Shown here piece after piece: positions 48,323 to 57,155 of a stretch of DNA of 64,000 nt. This DNA is from Akkermansia muciniphila (GTDB lineage: Bacteria; Verrucomicrobiota; Verrucomicrobiia; Limisphaerales; BJHT01): positions 1 through 64,000 of the forward strand of contig CAMAUZ010000032.1 in NCBI GenBank assembly GCA_945861535.1. Direction: 5' to 3'. The notes under the pieces are model-generated. The model was not told the origin of the DNA. It did not search any database and saw nothing but the letters and a program-made list of their open reading frames with translations. The translations under genes and the position numbers were made by a program. Positions within the stretch are counted from its first letter, which is position 1, and the number at the start of each line of letters is the position of its first letter.

Positions 48323-49222
48323 TCAGGTGGCGGGGATGAAGCGTTGGGCGATGAGGGCGGTTACAAAACAGGCGATGAAAATCAGGCCGGTCTCGCGGGG
48401 GACGTGGGCGACGGCGAGGAGGTCCACGAGGACGATGCCGGCGAGGAGGCTGGAGACGGTGCGGCCGATATTACGCGGGGTGGACCAGAAGGTGGTGCGG
48501 ATGGAGCGGAGAATCCACAGGGCGAGGATGGCCATGAGGATGAGCGCGCCGGGGCGGGATTCGCCGGCGTTTACGAGGAAGGCGAGCGCCACGGGGATCA
48601 GCAGCAGCAGGCACGGCCAGTAGCGGATGAGGCCGGGGACGCTTTCCTTTCGTGCGATGTAGCTGAGGCCGACGATGTAGCAGAAGAGGGCGACGGCGCT
48701 CCAGACGGCGAGGCCGGTGACGCCTTCACCGCCGGCGGAGGCGGCGGCGAGGAAGAGGAAGAAGCGGCAGCCGGCCATGAGGACGGGCGCGTGTTCCATT
48801 TCTTTGTGGAGGTAGTCGTAGAGGACGATGCAGGTGACGAGCAGGAGGGCGAGGACGGCGGTGGTGCGGTTCATCGTGGCGAGCAGGACGAAGCCGCCGC
48901 CTAGCAGAGCAATGCCCAGCGCCCAGACGGTGCGGACGTCGATGTGACCGGCGGGGATGGGGCGCTCGCGGCGGTGGCGGACGTCGAACCAGACATCGCA
49001 GGCGTCGTTGAGGAACATGCCGCCGATGTAGAGGAGCGAGGCACCGAGGCAGAGGCGGAGGAGGTTGTTGTTGCCGCCGCCGCCGAGGATCCATGCGGCC
49101 ATGCAGTTGGACCAGACGGTGGGAAGATTCGACACGCGGCCGAGGACGAGCAGCGTGCGCCAGAGCGGGGCGCGCGTCGGGGGCGCAGGCGCGGCGGATG
49201 GAATGGAGGCGGGCTGGCTCAA
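48323..49222 (-). CDS. eboC: UbiA-family prenyltransferase, EboC-like
   Basis: 299 residues with a TTG start. A short Pro/Ala tail precedes about eight membrane helices. The prenyl-diphosphate motif is NDACDVWFDVRHRRERPIPA, and a second Asp motif appears in YDYLHKEMEHAPVLM. The family transfers polyprenyl groups inside the membrane. Because the next gene upstream is EboE-like, I read this as EboC of the ebo cluster, which has been linked to moving a precursor to the periplasm in scytonemin-making cyanobacteria. Other UbiA roles cannot be excluded. Confidence 0.8.
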   Translation of the reverse strand: MSQPASIPSAAPAPPTRAPLWRTLLVLGRVSNLPTVWSNCMAAWILGGGGNNNLLRLCLGASLLYIGGMFLNDACDVWFDVRHRRERPIPAGHIDVRTVWALGIALLGGGFVLLATMNRTTAVLALLLVTCIVLYDYLHKEMEHAPVLMAGCRFFLFLAAASAGGEGVTGLAVWSAVALFCYIVGLSYIARKESVPGLIRYWPCLLLLIPVALAFLVNAGESRPGALILMAILALWILRSIRTTFWSTPRNIGRTVSSLLAGIVLVDLLAVAHVPRETGLIFIACFVTALIAQRFIPAT

Positions 49223-49273
49223 GGGTGGGTGCGGGGCGATGCGAGTGGTGTGGAGAAAGGAAGGGGGAATGGG

Positions 49274-49400
49274 AGATCCGCGGATGGACGCGGATTTACA
49301 GGGATAAAACGCGTGCCGGGTCGCGTCGCCATTTTCCGAGCGGGCGATTCGACCGGTGAGCTTATGTTATCCGTGTGCATCCGGGTTGACCCGTGGTTAA
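49274..49400. repeat. palindromic repeat, CGGATGGACACGGATT type, copy 2
   Basis: ATCCGCGGATGGACGCGGAT is mirrored by ATCCGTGTGCATCCGGGTTG, with outer GGATAA / TTATCC. Related to 27981-28096. It occupies the 193 bp gap between the eboE-like and eboC-like genes. Confidence 0.75.
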
Positions 49401-49415
49401 ACAGTGTTTTCCCGG

Positions 49416-50573
49416 CTATTCGGTCAGCCGGTGTTCGCGGCAGCGGGCGAGGCACCAGTCGTATTCGCCGACGAGCTGATCGACGACGGAGCGGTTCTTC
49501 ATTTCCGCGGGCATGACTTCCCAAGTGTAGGTCTCCATCTCGAGGTGGGAGCAGAGTGTCGGGTCTTCGCGCAGCAATTCGAGGACGCCGAGGAGATGGT
49601 CGGAGGTGTCGCCGAAGAGCGCGCTGGTGGGGCAGTGCAGGGGAATGTGGAAGTGGATGCGCCATTCCTCGTCGTCGGCGGGGGCGTTGGCCAGCGCGAG
49701 GTCGAGGTCGCGGTAGCGGGTGAGGGTGGTGCCGGTGCGGGCGATGACTTGATGGAGATAAACATCGTCGGCGAAGGCGGCGAGGGCGCGGCGGACTTCG
49801 GGGGTGGGACTGACTTTGAGCGCGGAACTGAGGTGGAGCTTGCTGATGCGGATGCCGTGGCGTTGCAGGCGGCGAATGGCCTCGCGGGGCTGCTCGTATT
49901 CCACGGCGAGATGGCAGGTGTCGTAGTTGACGCCGAGGTGATGGAGGACGCGCTGGTCGCCGGGGCGTTGGGCGACGATGCGGTCGAAGAAGGCGACGGT
50001 TTCCTGGGTGGTCTCGAAGAGGCCGAGCGGCTCGGGTTCGAGACCGAGGTGGAGGATGCGGCCGGTGCGCTCGGAGAGGCGCGCGATGTGATCGACGCAG
50101 CGGCAGAGGTTGTGGCGGATTTCGGCGAGCTGTTCCTCACCGCGGATGAATTCCTTGAACGAGCCGGGGAGGGTGCTGACGCTGCCTTCGATGCCGTCGG
50201 GGACGAGTTGGGCGAGGAGATCGAAGAGGCGGTTGGTGTAGTCGAGGCGCTCGCGGGTGGTCCAGTCGGGGGCGTACACTTGTTCCTTCACGCGGCCGCC
50301 GTGGAAGCGGCCGTAGGGAAATCCGTTGATGGTGAAAACGTAGCAGCCGCGTTCGTCGAGCCAGTGGCGGAAGGCGGTGAGGGTGGCGGGATCGCTGAGT
50401 TCGCGCGAGGCCTGGTCGCTGAGGCGCAGGCCAATGGCGAAGGGTGCGGTCGGGCAGACGCGTTGCTTGACGGCGAGGGTGAAGCGGTTGAGTGAGTCGA
50501 GGGTTTGCGCCCAGTCCTCGCCGCGATGGATGTTGGTGCAGTAGGCCAGGTGCAGGCCGTGGTGGAGCTTCAT
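49416..50573 (-). CDS. eboE: EboE-like TIM-barrel protein
   Basis: 385 residues, no signal peptide. HHGLHLAYCTNIHRGEDWAQ at the start, YVFTINGFPYGRFHGGRVKE, VYAPDWTTRERLDYT, LGLEPEPLGLFETTQETVAF and GVNYDTCHLAVEYEQP are the hallmarks of EboE ('metabolite traffic protein'), which has a xylose-isomerase-like barrel. It carries plausible metal ligands (His, Glu, Asp) in the last two motifs. Its substrate is unknown. It is followed by the EboC-like prenyltransferase on the same strand; EboA, EboB, EboD and EboF are not in the window. Confidence 0.88.
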   Translation of the reverse strand: MKLHHGLHLAYCTNIHRGEDWAQTLDSLNRFTLAVKQRVCPTAPFAIGLRLSDQASRELSDPATLTAFRHWLDERGCYVFTINGFPYGRFHGGRVKEQVYAPDWTTRERLDYTNRLFDLLAQLVPDGIEGSVSTLPGSFKEFIRGEEQLAEIRHNLCRCVDHIARLSERTGRILHLGLEPEPLGLFETTQETVAFFDRIVAQRPGDQRVLHHLGVNYDTCHLAVEYEQPREAIRRLQRHGIRISKLHLSSALKVSPTPEVRRALAAFADDVYLHQVIARTGTTLTRYRDLDLALANAPADDEEWRIHFHIPLHCPTSALFGDTSDHLLGVLELLREDPTLCSHLEMETYTWEVMPAEMKNRSVVDQLVGEYDWCLARCREHRLTE

Positions 50574-50886: not shown

Positions 50887-51576
50887 TCACAGCTCCGATT
50901 CGTCCTCGGCCTTGAGGGTCGTGATCTGGGTGGCGCCTTCGAGGGCTTTGAGTTCGGAGACGAGGTCGTCCACGCGCGCGGGGTCGCGGAGCAGGAGGCG
51001 GAAGGAGATGTCCACGCCTTCGTAGCCTTCGTGGGTGCGCTGGCTGGCGAGTTGGATGCGGCGGCTGTGGCGGTCGAGGAGGAAGCTCAGTTCCGGCAGA
51101 TCGATGACCGGCCGCGCCCAGTGGAGGTTCAAGACAACATCGTAACGATGGCGGCTGCCGAAGTTGGTGTACCAGAGATAGGTGATGAGAGCGCAGGTGA
51201 GGATGCCGCCGACGAGGGCGCTGGAGAATTTCTGCGTGCCGCAGGCCATGCCGACGAAGATCGAGGTGAGAATGAACGACGTGTCGAGCGTGTCGCGCAG
51301 AATGTTACGGAAGCGCACGATGGCGAAGACGGCCATCAGCCCGAAGGCGGTGACGATGTTGTTGCTCAAGACCACCATGACGAGCGACACGATGACGGGG
51401 GTGACAACGAGCGCGTTGACGAACGAACGCGAGTAGGACAGCCCGACATGAGTGAGCATGTACACCCAGCCGATGGTCTGCCCCAGCAGGAACGAGAGCA
51501 GGATGCCGAGGATGAGGGCGGGGATGTTGGGCGGTGCCAGCGAGGTGTCACCTTGGAAAAACAGCCATTCATTCAT
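50887..51576 (-). CDS. DUF4956 membrane protein
   Basis: 229 residues. Four membrane segments in the first 150 residues (starting at IPALILGILLSFLLGQTIGW; then FVNALVVTPVIVSLVMVVLS), the family-typical GLMAVFAIVRFRNILRDTLD and a soluble C-terminal ferredoxin-like domain (about 150-229). DUF4956 is of unknown function but is regularly next to VTC-domain polyphosphate polymerase and CotH genes, as here. It starts 29 bases after the VTC gene and probably forms part of an envelope complex with it. Confidence 0.9.
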   Translation of the reverse strand: MNEWLFFQGDTSLAPPNIPALILGILLSFLLGQTIGWVYMLTHVGLSYSRSFVNALVVTPVIVSLVMVVLSNNIVTAFGLMAVFAIVRFRNILRDTLDTSFILTSIFVGMACGTQKFSSALVGGILTCALITYLWYTNFGSRHRYDVVLNLHWARPVIDLPELSFLLDRHSRRIQLASQRTHEGYEGVDISFRLLLRDPARVDDLVSELKALEGATQITTLKAEDESEL

Positions 51577-51605
51577 AAGTAGATCAGGATTAGATCGGGA
51601 TTAGG

Positions 51606-52430
51606 TCAAGATTGTTGCAGGAGCACCGCCTTGTTGGCGAAGCGGTCGGGGTGGGTGCCGAGGGTTTCGCGGCGGGCGCGGCGACCCTCGAAGAGATACT
51701 CACCCATGAGCGCGATGCCATCGGCGTATTTGGCGGCCGAGCCTTGGGTGAGACCGCAGACGCGGACGAGTTCACGCAGCCAGTTGGGGAAGCGGCCGGT
51801 GAATTTCAACTCGACCACGGCCTGTTTGCCGAAGACGACGGCTTCCTTGTGCATCTCGGTGCGCAGGGACGCCGTCGGCTCGGGACAGCAGCGGACGTGA
51901 CGGTCGATGGTGACGCGGAGGGAATTGTCGTGCGGGCTGACCCAGGCCTCGCGCATGTAGGCGATGTGGGCCTTGGGAATCGCGTGGTATTCCTTCATCA
52001 GCGAACTGAAGCGCTGGAGGGCGACGAGGTCCTTCGGGTTCTTGGTGGCGACGTGTTCGAGTTTGGGAAGGTGGCCGGAGAGAATCCAATCGACCGCCTC
52101 GCGCTTGACGCCGCCGCGCTGTTTCAGGATGGCGTCGTTCATCCGGCGTTTGATCTCGAAGAAGACCGGGGCGCGGGGCGCGTCCTCGTAGAAGCGGAGG
52201 CGGAGTTTGAAACGGTTCTTGTTGCCGTTGATGGTGCCCCAGTAAATCGTGAGGAGGTCGGAGTCGAGATAGAGGCTGTGAACGGGATAGGAAAAGTCAG
52301 GCTGGCCTTCGCCATATTCGTCGATGACGAGATAGGAGCGAACGAAATCCCGGACCTTGAGCGCCGTCGTTTCGGGGACGACGTATTTCAACTCGAACCG
52401 CTGGAGTTGCAACTGATGGGTCTGGCTCAT
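51606..52430 (-). CDS. VTC-domain polyphosphate polymerase-like protein
   Basis: 274 residues, soluble. The VTC tunnel fold is recognisable by alternating basic and acidic motifs: QRFELKYVVPE, SLYLDSDLLTIYWG, RFKLRLRFYED, VFFEIKRRMNDAILKQR, SLRVTIDRHVRC, AVVELKFTGRFPNWL and KYADGIALMGEY. In yeast Vtc4 this domain makes polyphosphate from ATP, with the lysines and arginines lining the tunnel and glutamates holding Mn. No SPX domain is present. It sits between the DUF4956 gene and the CotH/lamin-tail gene, a conserved neighbourhood. Confidence 0.9.
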   Translation of the reverse strand: MSQTHQLQLQRFELKYVVPETTALKVRDFVRSYLVIDEYGEGQPDFSYPVHSLYLDSDLLTIYWGTINGNKNRFKLRLRFYEDAPRAPVFFEIKRRMNDAILKQRGGVKREAVDWILSGHLPKLEHVATKNPKDLVALQRFSSLMKEYHAIPKAHIAYMREAWVSPHDNSLRVTIDRHVRCCPEPTASLRTEMHKEAVVFGKQAVVELKFTGRFPNWLRELVRVCGLTQGSAAKYADGIALMGEYLFEGRRARRETLGTHPDRFANKAVLLQQS

Positions 52431-52535
52431 TTCACACGGAGACCGGCATGGAATTTCCCCGCGGACATCGCCGGCAGGAAGCGCGGTTTAATTCGCAAGG
52501 AACGGGGGTGAAGTAAAGCCTCGTTTTCAAAAAGG

Positions 52536-55500
52536 TCAGTTCGCGGCGGCCGGGGGGGGCGCGACGACGGGGGCGGCGGGGGCCTTGGTCACGACGATCT
52601 TATCCTCCTGCAAAACTTTGCCCCATTGATCGACGCCTTTGACGACGATCTGGTTGGGACCGTCAGCCAGGCCGATGTTCGCGAGGGACCAGGTGACCTC
52701 GGTCTTCCACTCGGGCTTCACGCCGGGCTGACCTTCGACGCCAAGGGTGAAGATGCCGTAGGGCGCGTTGCCTTCGAGCGTCACCGAGTCGGCTGCCGTG
52801 GTGATCGGGTTGCCGCCATTGGTGGTGATCTTGAAACCGAGTTTGTAGTTGGGGCCCAACATCCGCTGCGCCGCGGCATCGCGGGCGACACACCAGTTGC
52901 GATACATGGTGGCGTTGATGGGCACCGCGGTGGTGGCCTCCTCCTCGGCCTTGAGGTAGGCGAAGAACCGGGGCGAGTCCTTGGTGTAGTTTTCCATCAG
53001 CTCGACGAGGTAATAGTTGAAGAGCCGTCGGTTGTAGGGTTTCTCGATCCACGACCGCACGCGATCGCCGTAGAACGCGCCGACGACGTTGTTGCCGCTG
53101 AAGCCCTGGTCGCTGTCCCATTGGAAGAACTGCCAGAGGCCGTCGTGCGGCCGGCGGTAGAACAGGGCGTTGTGGGCGTTGCCGAGCGTGAAGGTGTCCC
53201 AGTCGCCGCTGTAGCCGCGGACCACGGCGTGGCGCAGGGTGTTATACGGGTCGATGTGCTTCTCGATTTCCGCCTGCGAATAGGTGTTGTCGGTGATGGT
53301 TTTGACAAACGAGATCAACCCGCCGAAATCGTCCTCGACCTCGCTGGTCCGCTTCATCCAGATGGGGCGGTAGCGGCCGGCGTCTTCGCCTTTGTAAATC
53401 CAGTCCGGCTGCAGCGGGGATCCGCCGCCCCAGTCATCCCGCAACCACCAGGTCATCTCGGGCCGATAGAGTTCCCCCTTGCTCCCGTCTTTGAAAACCC
53501 GGTTGAGAAAATCGTTGGCCACCGGCTCGGTCTCTTCGCGGACCAGCGGGGCGGTGTTGTTGATGATCACCCGGACAAACTCCGCCTGCGCGACCGGATG
53601 CCCGAGCTGGTACATCCAGAAACGCACCACGCGGTTGTGCAGCCGGGCCTCGCCGTCGGGATCGTTGTCATAGGTGAACTTCGTATGGGAGCGGAAGAGC
53701 CGGTCGCCGGGCAGTTTCCACTTACCCCGGCTCATGTCCGTGGAGCGGGTGTAACCGCTGCCGCTGTTATGGATCTCCGCGTTGTAATAGATGTCCGTCT
53801 CGTTCGCGATGAAGGTCGAGTTATGATAGTGATTGGAGAGCCGGGGGAATTTGAACCCATACTTGTTTGTATTACCCCCCGCGATTTTCTCCATGTCATA
53901 GGCGGAGACGACGAACCGCTTCAGCGCCAGGTCGCGGGGCACCGGTTGGTTGTCCACGATGTAGAGCGCCGGCTTCTCCGGTCCGCCCCGCGGTAGCATC
54001 GTAATCTGCCCGCCCGGCCCGCGCGCCAGCACATAGAACTGCACGATCTGCCCCTGGCTCCGAAGGTCCGCTATTTCCGCCGTATAGATGGTATCTCCGG
54101 CGATCATGTCACCGCCGTTTTTGCCGTCATCGACCATCGGTTTGCTCAGCCACGGGGTTTTGTCCGTATTGCTGTCGGCGCGGTAAAAGAGCTGCACGCT
54201 GGCCACCCGCACACTGGCCGGGACGTTGGCGGTGATTTTGACGGTATCGGTCGTCCGCGGCACGGCCGGACTGTGCGCCAGTTGCTCGACCTGTGGCGGC
54301 GGGGCGGCCTGCAGCCGGGAATTCGCGCGGCCGGGTGTGCCCACATTGGGCGGCACGGCCAGCAGGAAGGAAGGATTGATGCTGTAATCCCAGGTGTGCG
54401 CGATCAACCGTGGCGTGCCGGACAGCCACCGGGCGTCAAAACGCAACTCATACTTCTGCCCCTTGGCGATCCCGACGATGTCGATCTCGGCGCGGTTGGC
54501 ACGGTTGTCACCCCGGCCATCGGAAATAAGATGCAACTCACCATTGGTCATATAGCTCGCCCAATGTGTGCCCTGACAGACCCAGCCATTGCTGCTGCTG
54601 CCATTGGGAGACATGACGGTCGGATTGGCGATGAAGTTGGTTCCCTGCCCATCGAGCCGGAACTCAATGTTCTTCAACACAACGTGCCCCTTGCTGATGA
54701 GATAAAAATGTAACTCCTGAAAGTCACTCGGCTGCCCGTCCCGCAACCATTCCTGGTAGGTGCCTGTGAACGAGTAGGTCTTGAACTTGGATTTGCTGCT
54801 CTCATCGCTATCCGCCCAGGCCGAGGAGAGGCTGTTATCCATCAAAGGATGCCGGAGTTCCAGGCTGCTGCCGCTGTTGTGGGCAATGAACGGCCAGTCG
54901 CCGCCGAACCGGTAATCCACCTGACTCGCCAGGTTCCCATGCTGATCCACCAACCGCACCAGATCCCCCTTGTTATTCAGTTTTCCTTCAAAATCCCCGA
55001 TGACATTGATGTTCCCGTGCATCCCGCGCAGGAAGGACTCGTCGCCCGCCACCACCAGGTAGCCGCCTGCGGGAATCTTGCTGCCTTTGGGGAAGGTAAA
55101 CTCCGTGCCATCGGTGAAATGCCATCCCGTCAACGACACCGCACTCCGGCCGCGGTTGAACAGCTCAATGAACTCGCTCTTCTTCTGCGTATAGGGCGGC
55201 GCGAACATGATCTCGTTGATGACGATGTCTTGATTGCGCTCGGGATTGTTGGGCTTGTTCTTGGTATCCTTTGTCGTCGCATACCATTCGCGGCTGCCAT
55301 CGGGAAACGCCTGGAGATAGTCGCCGTGCTTGGGCGGGTTAAATATCCAGGCGTCCTTCACGGAATTCTCGCCATCGACGAGATAGACCACCACTTCGTC
55401 CTGCACCACCGGGAATTGCACGCTGAACGCCTTCACCCCGCGCGCCGGCAGCGTCACGTCCCGCAGCGACACTTTCTCGGAAAAATCCCGCTGCGAGGTC

Positions 55501-57155
55501 AGGAAATAGCCCGCCAGACTCTGCGGGGTATAGCCGGCGTTGAAGAGTTCCACCCACTCGATGTGTTTCTGCTTGCTGAAGAGACTGCCGGCGAATTCCA
55601 CCTCGTTCAGCCGCACCGAACTGATCAATCCCGTCCCGCTCACGTTGGGAGCCTCCTTGGTCGGATCGCTCATCAGGAACCAACTGTTCGCCCCGTCCGG
55701 CTTGCGGGCGAGTGACTTGTCCGTGATCGGCGCGCTGTGCCGCAACGCGCTCAACACCGTCTTGCCATCCCGATCCGTCAGGAAGAACTCCGTCGCCGCG
55801 AGCGGCAGTTTCGTGGTCTCATAATCCACCGCTACAAAGCCCCGCGGCCGGATGACCATGTTGCCCGTGAACTTGAACCGCGTGAGGTTGCTCTTGTAGC
55901 TGCTGAGGTAGTGATCCTTCAGGCTGATGGGCTGCGTGCCGGTGTTGTAAAATTCGACAAAACCCTTGCCCGCCGTGCCCGGTCGGATCTCGTTGAAGAC
56001 CACCTCGGTCTGCCCCGACGCCGGTCCCAGCGCCGGCCCCGCCCCTTTTAGTCGCGCCCCGAATACCAGGTCCGGACTCGCCAGCGCCACCTGATGCACC
56101 TCCACCGCCAGCACGTTCGTCCCCTTCACGATCAAGCCCGCATTGATGCTTGGAAGGACATTTTGTTCTTCCCGCGGCTCGCCGATGTTCCGCGCCGCCG
56201 GCGTGCTATAGACGACATTCCCGGCGGGCATGCCCACGCGCCCGATTTCCTGCCCGTTCAGGTAATACACCGCGCCGTCGTCCACGATGGTATCCAGCGT
56301 CAGCTTCAGCCCTTGGTTCGAGCCATTGAACACAAACTCTTTCCGCAGATAGATCGTCCACACCCCCGCCGGTCGCGGCGTGCGAATCCCCGGCGCCGGA
56401 AGTGGTGTCGGGCAAAATCCGAACATCCCCGCGCCCACCGGCCACGAGCGGTCGTCGAACTTCGCATCCCGCCACTTCGGATCGGGCGCGCCCGGTCGCG
56501 CGAAATAACGCCACGGATCGCCGTAATCGAACAGCACCAGACCCTCGCGGGAAATCACCTCGGGGCTGGCCACCGGAATCTCCAGTTCGCGCGTTGGGTC
56601 CGTGCCCGGCGTGCCGCCCGGCCGCGAACTGACCGTCCAGTTGCGCCAGTCGTCCACCGATTTGTCCGGGCTGATCAACACCAGCGAATGCCCGGCCCCG
56701 TTCGCCGCCGGCGACCACTTGCCCCGATCGCTGTAGCGCACCTGACACACGATCAACCCGTTCTTATCCCGCAGCCGGATGCGGTCCCCGGTCTTGCCCA
56801 GCCGCCCGACCCACGGTCCGTAAACGCGCACCGTGTTGGGAATCCTGTACGCCGCGCGGATGGTTTTGTCGTCGCTCTGGGAAACCACGATGCGCTCAAA
56901 GGGCCGGAGCAGCGTCATTCGCGGATCGGTCGCCGAGAAATTGGGGAAGGTGTACTCGATTTGCCCGGTCAGCTTCCACCCGGCGATGTCGAACGGATTG
57001 GCGGTGTTGTTGTAGAGTTCGACGAACTCGGGGAGTTCGCCCCGCGGATGATACATGATCTCACTGATCACGATCTGCTCGGCGCGCGCCGCCAGCCCGC
57101 CCGTGAGCCACACGGCCACCGCCGCCAGCCAGATTGAAATGTGCCGCAATTTCAT
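52536..57155 (-). CDS. surface protein with four lamin-tail domains and a CotH kinase domain
   Basis: 1539 residues with a signal peptide. Lamin-tail domains begin at about residues 27 (VISEIMYHPRGELPEFVELY), 383 (VFNEIRPGTAGKGFVEFYNT), 515 (RLNEVEFAGSLFSKQKHIEW) and 643 (IVINEIMFAPPYTQKKSEFI). An Ig-like part with a calcium-type loop precedes the CotH domain (about 1075-1405), whose likely catalytic Asp motif is FFQWDSDQGFSGN (about 1345). A C-terminal Ig-like domain and a Pro/Ala tail follow. Bacterial CotH proteins are atypical protein kinases. Gene order suggests it works with the VTC and DUF4956 proteins at the cell surface. Confidence 0.93.
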   Translation of the reverse strand: MKLRHISIWLAAVAVWLTGGLAARAEQIVISEIMYHPRGELPEFVELYNNTANPFDIAGWKLTGQIEYTFPNFSATDPRMTLLRPFERIVVSQSDDKTIRAAYRIPNTVRVYGPWVGRLGKTGDRIRLRDKNGLIVCQVRYSDRGKWSPAANGAGHSLVLISPDKSVDDWRNWTVSSRPGGTPGTDPTRELEIPVASPEVISREGLVLFDYGDPWRYFARPGAPDPKWRDAKFDDRSWPVGAGMFGFCPTPLPAPGIRTPRPAGVWTIYLRKEFVFNGSNQGLKLTLDTIVDDGAVYYLNGQEIGRVGMPAGNVVYSTPAARNIGEPREEQNVLPSINAGLIVKGTNVLAVEVHQVALASPDLVFGARLKGAGPALGPASGQTEVVFNEIRPGTAGKGFVEFYNTGTQPISLKDHYLSSYKSNLTRFKFTGNMVIRPRGFVAVDYETTKLPLAATEFFLTDRDGKTVLSALRHSAPITDKSLARKPDGANSWFLMSDPTKEAPNVSGTGLISSVRLNEVEFAGSLFSKQKHIEWVELFNAGYTPQSLAGYFLTSQRDFSEKVSLRDVTLPARGVKAFSVQFPVVQDEVVVYLVDGENSVKDAWIFNPPKHGDYLQAFPDGSREWYATTKDTKNKPNNPERNQDIVINEIMFAPPYTQKKSEFIELFNRGRSAVSLTGWHFTDGTEFTFPKGSKIPAGGYLVVAGDESFLRGMHGNINVIGDFEGKLNNKGDLVRLVDQHGNLASQVDYRFGGDWPFIAHNSGSSLELRHPLMDNSLSSAWADSDESSKSKFKTYSFTGTYQEWLRDGQPSDFQELHFYLISKGHVVLKNIEFRLDGQGTNFIANPTVMSPNGSSSNGWVCQGTHWASYMTNGELHLISDGRGDNRANRAEIDIVGIAKGQKYELRFDARWLSGTPRLIAHTWDYSINPSFLLAVPPNVGTPGRANSRLQAAPPPQVEQLAHSPAVPRTTDTVKITANVPASVRVASVQLFYRADSNTDKTPWLSKPMVDDGKNGGDMIAGDTIYTAEIADLRSQGQIVQFYVLARGPGGQITMLPRGGPEKPALYIVDNQPVPRDLALKRFVVSAYDMEKIAGGNTNKYGFKFPRLSNHYHNSTFIANETDIYYNAEIHNSGSGYTRSTDMSRGKWKLPGDRLFRSHTKFTYDNDPDGEARLHNRVVRFWMYQLGHPVAQAEFVRVIINNTAPLVREETEPVANDFLNRVFKDGSKGELYRPEMTWWLRDDWGGGSPLQPDWIYKGEDAGRYRPIWMKRTSEVEDDFGGLISFVKTITDNTYSQAEIEKHIDPYNTLRHAVVRGYSGDWDTFTLGNAHNALFYRRPHDGLWQFFQWDSDQGFSGNNVVGAFYGDRVRSWIEKPYNRRLFNYYLVELMENYTKDSPRFFAYLKAEEEATTAVPINATMYRNWCVARDAAAQRMLGPNYKLGFKITTNGGNPITTAADSVTLEGNAPYGIFTLGVEGQPGVKPEWKTEVTWSLANIGLADGPNQIVVKGVDQWGKVLQEDKIVVTKAPAAPVVAPPPAAAN

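Follow-up and report, generated by a model that had tools for sequence, protein, structure and literature searches.

Bacterial proteins with a VTC-type polyphosphate polymerase domain have a near-obligate membrane partner in the DUF4956 family, and the two together may constitute the core of a synthesis-coupled polyphosphate translocase, a reading to which we assign a probability of about 0.55, leaving aside any last step performed by an associated CotH kinase. The pair was found at a three-gene locus in a 64,000-nucleotide stretch of Akkermansia muciniphila DNA (contig CAMAUZ010000032.1, assembly GCA_945861535.1; hereafter the window). The locus lies on the minus strand and comprises a gene for a CotH protein with lamin-tail domains (LTD), the VTC gene and the DUF4956 gene, whose products are given in amino acids (aa) and transmembrane (TM) helices:

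52536..57155 (57155->52536), minus strand: CotH/LTD gene, 1539 aa, predicted to be secreted, LTD x4 and a CotH kinase domain (open reading frame list, Pfam, own profile)
52431..52535, minus strand: gap of 105 bp between CotH/LTD and VTC
51606..52430 (52430->51606), minus strand: VTC gene, 274 aa, predicted to be soluble, VTC-type polyphosphate polymerase domain (Pfam, model)
51577..51605, minus strand: gap of 29 bp between VTC and DUF4956, the usual spacing for the pair
50887..51576 (51576->50887), minus strand: DUF4956 gene, 229 aa, five predicted TM helices and a C-terminal ACT-like domain (Pfam, model)

Transcription runs from CotH/LTD through VTC to DUF4956, opposite to the order in the title of an earlier reading of this DNA from its letters (the initial annotation). 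The genes and families themselves were as described there. All open reading frames were located, and each family scored above its Pfam cut-off (DUF4956, 44.2 bits against 30.6; VTC, 141.9 against 23; CotH, 54.5 against 23.8), with four LTD stretches (191 bits) and one CotH domain in the 1539-aa protein. A closely related locus from another assembly (L048) contains the same three genes in the same order, with amino acid identities to the window of 92% (CotH), 97% (VTC) and 98% (DUF4956). The ratios of nonsynonymous to synonymous substitution (dN/dS) between the two loci were 0.08, 0.06 and 0.04, respectively, indicating that all three genes are real and under purifying selection. Promoter-like and terminator-like sites across the three-gene region, gaps included, showed no excess over chance, and Rfam and tRNA scans of the window gave no matches.

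VTC and DUF4956 form a near-obligate pair

The co-occurrence statistics called for by the initial annotation were computed for 240 genomes of Verrucomicrobiota and for 296 genomes from the phylum, taken as Bacteroidota, to which a Balneolales relative belongs. VTC and DUF4956 were each found in 48 Verrucomicrobiota genomes, 47 of which were shared (VTC only, 1; DUF4956 only, 1; neither, 191; Fisher p 1e-47), and DUF4956 was present in 48/48 Bacteroidota genomes with VTC (p 1e-36). It was located directly downstream of 50 of the 57 Verrucomicrobiota VTC genes and a short distance upstream of another three, directly downstream of 51/54 in Bacteroidota, and downstream of 6/6 VTC genes on plasmid records of Actinomycetota and Bacillota. 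Spacing in the sampled loci was mostly between small overlaps and +50 bp. The same three of 14 control genomes were positive for VTC and for DUF4956, and among close relatives in which the two genes were unlinked, VTC occurred elsewhere in eight of nine genomes. It is almost certain that DUF4956 is the functional partner of VTC. A strict rule that the two always occur together was rejected, since 26 Bacteroidota genomes contained DUF4956 only and one Verrucomicrobiota genome each had only one of the two; the dependence is therefore one-way in Bacteroidota, and the family serves other purposes. Some long open frames hinted at a VTC-DUF4956 fusion, which gained no support, the two matches lying in different frames where checked.

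Another use of the family was represented by DUF4956 genes of approximately 185 aa in genomes without VTC (L175, L178, L180, L181, L183 and L185), several of which stood beside genes for pyruvate-phosphate-dikinase-type and MORN-repeat proteins. In addition, a Bacteroidota genome with VTC and another DUF4956 contained a DUF4956 gene followed by one for a phosphate-selective porin O/P protein (PF07396; L176, 1411-3067).

Judged from its sequence and model, the VTC protein is not dead, retaining the tunnel residues and a Vtc4-type fold. A profile built from 27 bacterial VTC proteins matched yeast Vtc4 with E=6.5e-24, and 13 Vtc4 residues were identical in it (K200, R264, R266, K281, K294, R296, Y359, R361, R373, D377, E426, K428 and K458), among which we take K200, K281, K294, R361, R373 and K458 to be catalytic tunnel residues. 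The counterparts in the window protein are K15, R77, R79, K94, K103, R105, Y158, R160, R172, D176, E207, K209 and K234, and these were invariant across 59 relatives. R264/R266/E426 is the triple mutated to inactivate Vtc4 (PMC9911596). The initial annotation had held that loss of the tunnel residues would count against it; every catalytic tunnel residue examined was intact. The AlphaFold model (predicted local distance difference test, pLDDT, 90) aligned with Vtc4 (3g3r) over 242 residues at 3.2 A with Z 22.0, bearing out the proposed polyphosphate polymerase fold, and the best non-VTC tunnel enzyme reached Z 14.1. Of the "polyphosphate or nucleotide chemistry" suggested earlier, the polyphosphate side held up, whereas the nucleotide alternative became less likely, and an identity as a nucleotide cyclase or CYTH enzyme was rejected (VTC-type Z 22 against 14 or less for CYTH and cyclase folds). 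The protein very probably makes polyphosphate. Pfam recognised only the VTC domain in its 274 aa, and the model consisted of a compact tunnel domain with short helices, so that an SPX or TM domain is absent; if its mode of action is that of the yeast enzyme, it should therefore have a membrane partner. Studies of bacterial polyphosphate usually concern the intracellular stores produced by PPK; of two relatives checked for PPK, one had PPK1 and one had none.

Profile comparison and modelling identify the DUF4956 protein as a distant MgtC homologue with five TM helices and an ACT-like domain. In its model (pLDDT 79) the helices occupy residues 18-42, 50-69, 74-90, 92-113 and 117-137, as expected from the multi-pass protein of the initial annotation, and an alpha/beta domain of ACT type covers about residues 145-222. 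A structure search, in which the TM part was hardly probed, related this C-terminal domain to many ACT-like and ferredoxin-like folds, including the MgtC C-terminal domain 2lqj. The DUF4956 and MgtC profiles aligned over 199 columns (hhalign probability 96, E 1.3e-9), with E > 0.1 for reversed, column-shuffled and UbiA controls. The window protein had no match to Pfam MgtC, and that of a relative (L150) scored 21.1 bits, below the cut-off of 31.4; the family was therefore considered a distant MgtC homologue and was not filed as MgtC. It shares with MgtC/SapB the full-length profile homology, the five helices and the C-terminal ACT-like domain, and differs in its VTC context and its own invariant motif YS...RFR...D. 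The residues invariant across a diverse set were Y39, Y48, S49, R88, F89, R90, D98 and G109. Given a cytoplasmic C-terminal domain and positive-inside loops, most of them would lie at helix ends facing the cytoplasm.

Adaptor genes and a candidate export route

The genetic context was analyzed in 80 loci gathered by DUF4956 match and, separately, in 60 loci gathered by VTC match from the phylum surveys (40 Verrucomicrobiota and 20 Bacteroidota). In the former set, VTC was directly upstream of DUF4956 in 71 loci, and 67 contained an HlyD-type adaptor, which in 64 came directly after DUF4956. In the latter, the adaptor adjoined the pair in 41/60 loci (22/40 Verrucomicrobiota and 19/20 Bacteroidota), and TolC/OEP followed it in 11/40 Verrucomicrobiota loci, four of which were checked with Pfam. 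TolC was not found beside Bacteroidota pairs with a profile built up from a single Hymenobacter sequence, an absence that applies at that sensitivity only. The gene order VTC-DUF4956-adaptor-TolC-CotH/LTD occurred in a single same-strand run in two loci (L206 and L210), VTC-DUF4956-adaptor-CotH/LTD in Balneolales, and adaptor-DUF4956-TolC in Hymenobacter. The TolC-docking RLS motif RxxxLxxxxxxS (defined in PMC3391258) was present in 59/101 full-length adaptors, against a mean of 10 and a maximum of 17 in shuffles. Six monoderm loci contained the adaptor in 0/6 and CotH in 4/6. The neighbourhood thus recurs in bacteria, as had been claimed, with adaptor/TolC and CotH genes repeatedly found around the pair; no further widely recurrent neighbour family appeared in the 60 loci. 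One Bacteroidota subgroup (L157, L156 and similar) had DUF2490, a probable outer-membrane barrel, after VTC-DUF4956 instead of the adaptor. A Balneolales contig (L125, 7028-16684) contained two tandem VTC-DUF4956-adaptor-CotH/LTD copies, the second cut by the locus end, and a FIST-like protein, recognised by eye, followed the adaptor in six Verrucomicrobiota loci (L066, L067, L081, L094, L112 and L122).

The position of the pair before export-pump parts in these relatives suggests that its probable function is to synthesise polyphosphate and expel it from the cell. VTC and DUF4956 would together do in bacteria, as two proteins, what the VTC complex does in eukaryotes. The soluble tunnel enzyme would polymerise phosphate in the cytoplasm, drawing on nucleotide triphosphate, and pass the growing chain directly to DUF4956. 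The latter, a five-TM MgtC-like protein with invariant Arg, Asp and Tyr at the cytoplasmic membrane face, would move the chain across the inner membrane, and in many diderms an HlyD-type adaptor, often with the RLS motif, and sometimes a co-encoded TolC would take it to the outside. CotH/LTD proteins would be exported separately and act where the polymer arrives, with polyphosphate possibly serving them as phosphoryl donor or joining them in a phosphorylated surface matrix. We infer the polyphosphate product, the translocation by DUF4956, its outward direction and the role of CotH, and these differ in likelihood. Outward translocation of the chain by DUF4956 is somewhat favoured, and the odds that adaptor and TolC, where present, carry polyphosphate to the surface appear even. 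The link between cytoplasm and envelope that the initial annotation had assigned to DUF4956 was retained, in a sharper form, as a putative membrane translocation component in the inner-membrane slot.

Two known systems offer comparisons. With the eukaryotic VTC complex (Vtc1/Vtc3/Vtc4), whose polymerase is coupled to vacuolar translocation, the bacterial pair shares the tunnel fold and residues, the coupling of a cytoplasmic polymerase to a membrane component, and conserved basic residues in the membrane partner. However, the polymerase lacks the SPX and TM domains of its eukaryotic counterpart, the partner is the MgtC-like DUF4956 rather than a Vtc1-type TM domain, and the proposed target is the cell envelope rather than the vacuole. 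As in type I secretion and tripartite efflux (HlyB-HlyD-TolC, MacAB-TolC), relatives encode an HlyD-type adaptor with RLS and TolC beside an inner-membrane component, whereas no ATP-binding cassette (ABC) ATPase or resistance-nodulation-division pump is present, and the polymerase would supply the energy. Neither ABC nor any other family of ATP-driven inner-membrane pumps was found beside the pair in more than 3/40 loci; the system was therefore not filed as type I, and it may work like one. If the translocase is real, a widespread VTC-type synthase with an export path would account for DUF4956, a family of unknown function, and bacteria would have their own equivalent of the eukaryotic machine that couples synthesis to translocation.

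MgtC homologues regulate other membrane proteins, which raises a regulatory explanation: polyphosphate would serve cytoplasmic use, the MgtC-like DUF4956 would export nothing and would instead inhibit or sense, its ACT-like domain controlling VTC or an ion or phosphate transporter, and adaptor and TolC would belong to a separate pump of the same regulon. The ACT-like domain, a common sensor fold, and the DUF4956-only Bacteroidota genomes are consistent with it. Nevertheless, the pair directly borders the adaptor and TolC genes, no other inner-membrane transporter lying in between, and in Hymenobacter DUF4956 lies exactly between adaptor and TolC, so we regard this explanation as rather unlikely.

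CotH proteins and polysaccharide loci

The 1539-aa protein begins with a putative Sec signal peptide MKLRHISIWLAAVAVWLTGGLAARA (read from sequence), and our own profile placed its LTD at residues 27-133, 395-448, 514-574 and 643-741. The CotH domain, at about 1150-1382, contains a GDWD...WDSD motif that aligns with other CotH copies, and the catalytic aspartates (D228 and D251 of B. subtilis CotH) are apparently kept, at motif level only; no solved structure was matched when CotH proteins were used as sequence queries. The protein has the Pfam kinase domain of the spore-coat kinase CotH (PMC7821199), from which it differs in being a 1539-aa LTD protein predicted to be secreted, with no spore context, where ATP is not expected. 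In two Balneolales loci (L104 and L125), a type IX sorting tag on the CotH protein implies that this CotH should end up outside.

The link between CotH and VTC is looser than that between VTC and DUF4956. CotH and the pair adjoin by chance in this species if the CotH/LTD gene merely happened to settle beside an unrelated VTC-DUF4956 operon, and the close relatives in which the pair occurs without CotH directly upstream (L050, L054-L056) and the many CotH genes of the window genome would fit such a coincidence. It is highly improbable in view of CotH lying <=8 kb from VTC in 20/40 Verrucomicrobiota loci against 0.8 expected, its presence in 45/48 VTC genomes against 17/192 others in the Verrucomicrobiota survey, and same-strand runs of CotH with the pair in Bacillota, Actinomycetota and Bacteroidota. 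In Bacteroidota, CotH was within the same distance in 6/20 loci. One CotH gene was found directly upstream of DUF4956 in a genome without a VTC match (G237, C59, 95340-96975).

The CotH-VTC-DUF4956 neighbourhood is already documented. The same three families adjoin one another beside pel genes in the Gram-positive Pel accessory set cotH-PPP-DUF4956-DUF4832 (Whitfield et al. 2020, PMC7112168). That work presented them only as accessory and proposed that CotH might be regulatory, assigned DUF4956 no function, and included neither adaptor/TolC nor a transport hypothesis; no pel genes were seen beside the window genes, unlike in those loci. VTC with CotH has also been described in C. perfringens, again with no function given for DUF4956 (PMC2879425). 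The open-access literature, the scope of our search as opposed to subscription papers and preprints, yielded no published DUF4956 function and no HlyD/TolC or export link for the pair. Within it, the MgtC homology, the near-obligate pairing statistics and the adaptor/TolC extension are new.

These loci point to another possibility, namely that a co-encoded exopolysaccharide (Pel, poly-N-acetylglucosamine or similar) is the target of VTC, DUF4956 and CotH, which would modify or regulate it, for example by phosphorylation, with no polyphosphate export. In streptococci, clostridia and bifidobacteria the genes are reported beside pel (PMC7112168), C. perfringens NELoc-2 has CotH and a chitin-synthase-like glycosyltransferase nearby (PMC2879425), a glycosyltransferase is nearby in Planococcus, and polysaccharide-type genes surround a Pseudobutyrivibrio locus. 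We consider it decidedly improbable, since no glycosyltransferase family recurred beside the pair in 60 diderm loci and none was present among the scanned window neighbours.

For the proposed translocase, the CotH step is the least secure. It is unlikely that CotH uses polyphosphate as phosphoryl donor, and improbable that the whole forms a dedicated secretion route, in which VTC synthesis would drive the chain via DUF4956, HlyD-type adaptor and TolC to the surface, where secreted CotH would phosphorylate extracellular proteins with polyphosphate instead of ATP. If so, polyphosphate would be a phosphate source for kinases acting outside the cell, where ATP is scarce.

The window locus as a reduced case

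Several observations weigh against the translocase. The polyphosphate product and its transport are deduced from sequence, model and gene context. With no ATPase at the inner membrane, the energy has to come from chain synthesis itself or from the membrane potential, and Pfam does not relate DUF4956 to the membrane subunits of the eukaryotic VTC complex. The DUF4956-only Bacteroidota genomes count on the same side, as do the Bacteroidota adaptor calls, made via an iterated profile that includes some members without a Pfam match, most of them with the RLS motif. CotH linkage is patchy, only one of the 10 CotH genes in the window genome lying by VTC. Finally, neither an adaptor nor TolC is next to the three-gene locus of the window, where EboE-like and UbiA-like genes come about 310 bp after DUF4956, and the best adaptor match in the window genome (E=1.2e-36) is to an unlinked gene of 237 aa that lacks the coiled-coil hairpin. 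The features concerned are:

48323-50573, minus strand: partial ebo-like pair; EboE by NCBIfam (467 bits, cut-off 250) and a UbiA-like gene (EboC model 98 bits, below the cut-off of 250)
L151 6638-7351 (G000 contig C47), minus strand: 237-aa HlyD-type mini-adaptor, apparently solitary in the window genome

L048 likewise has the EboE-like gene downstream. As the sole adaptor found in this species stands apart from the locus and lacks the hairpin, the polymer may get no further than the periplasm. The mini-adaptor keeps the N-terminal PIPTP..RWREF signature of its family, as in full adaptors, and a similar short adaptor is divergent to VTC in three relatives (L058, L059 and L061).

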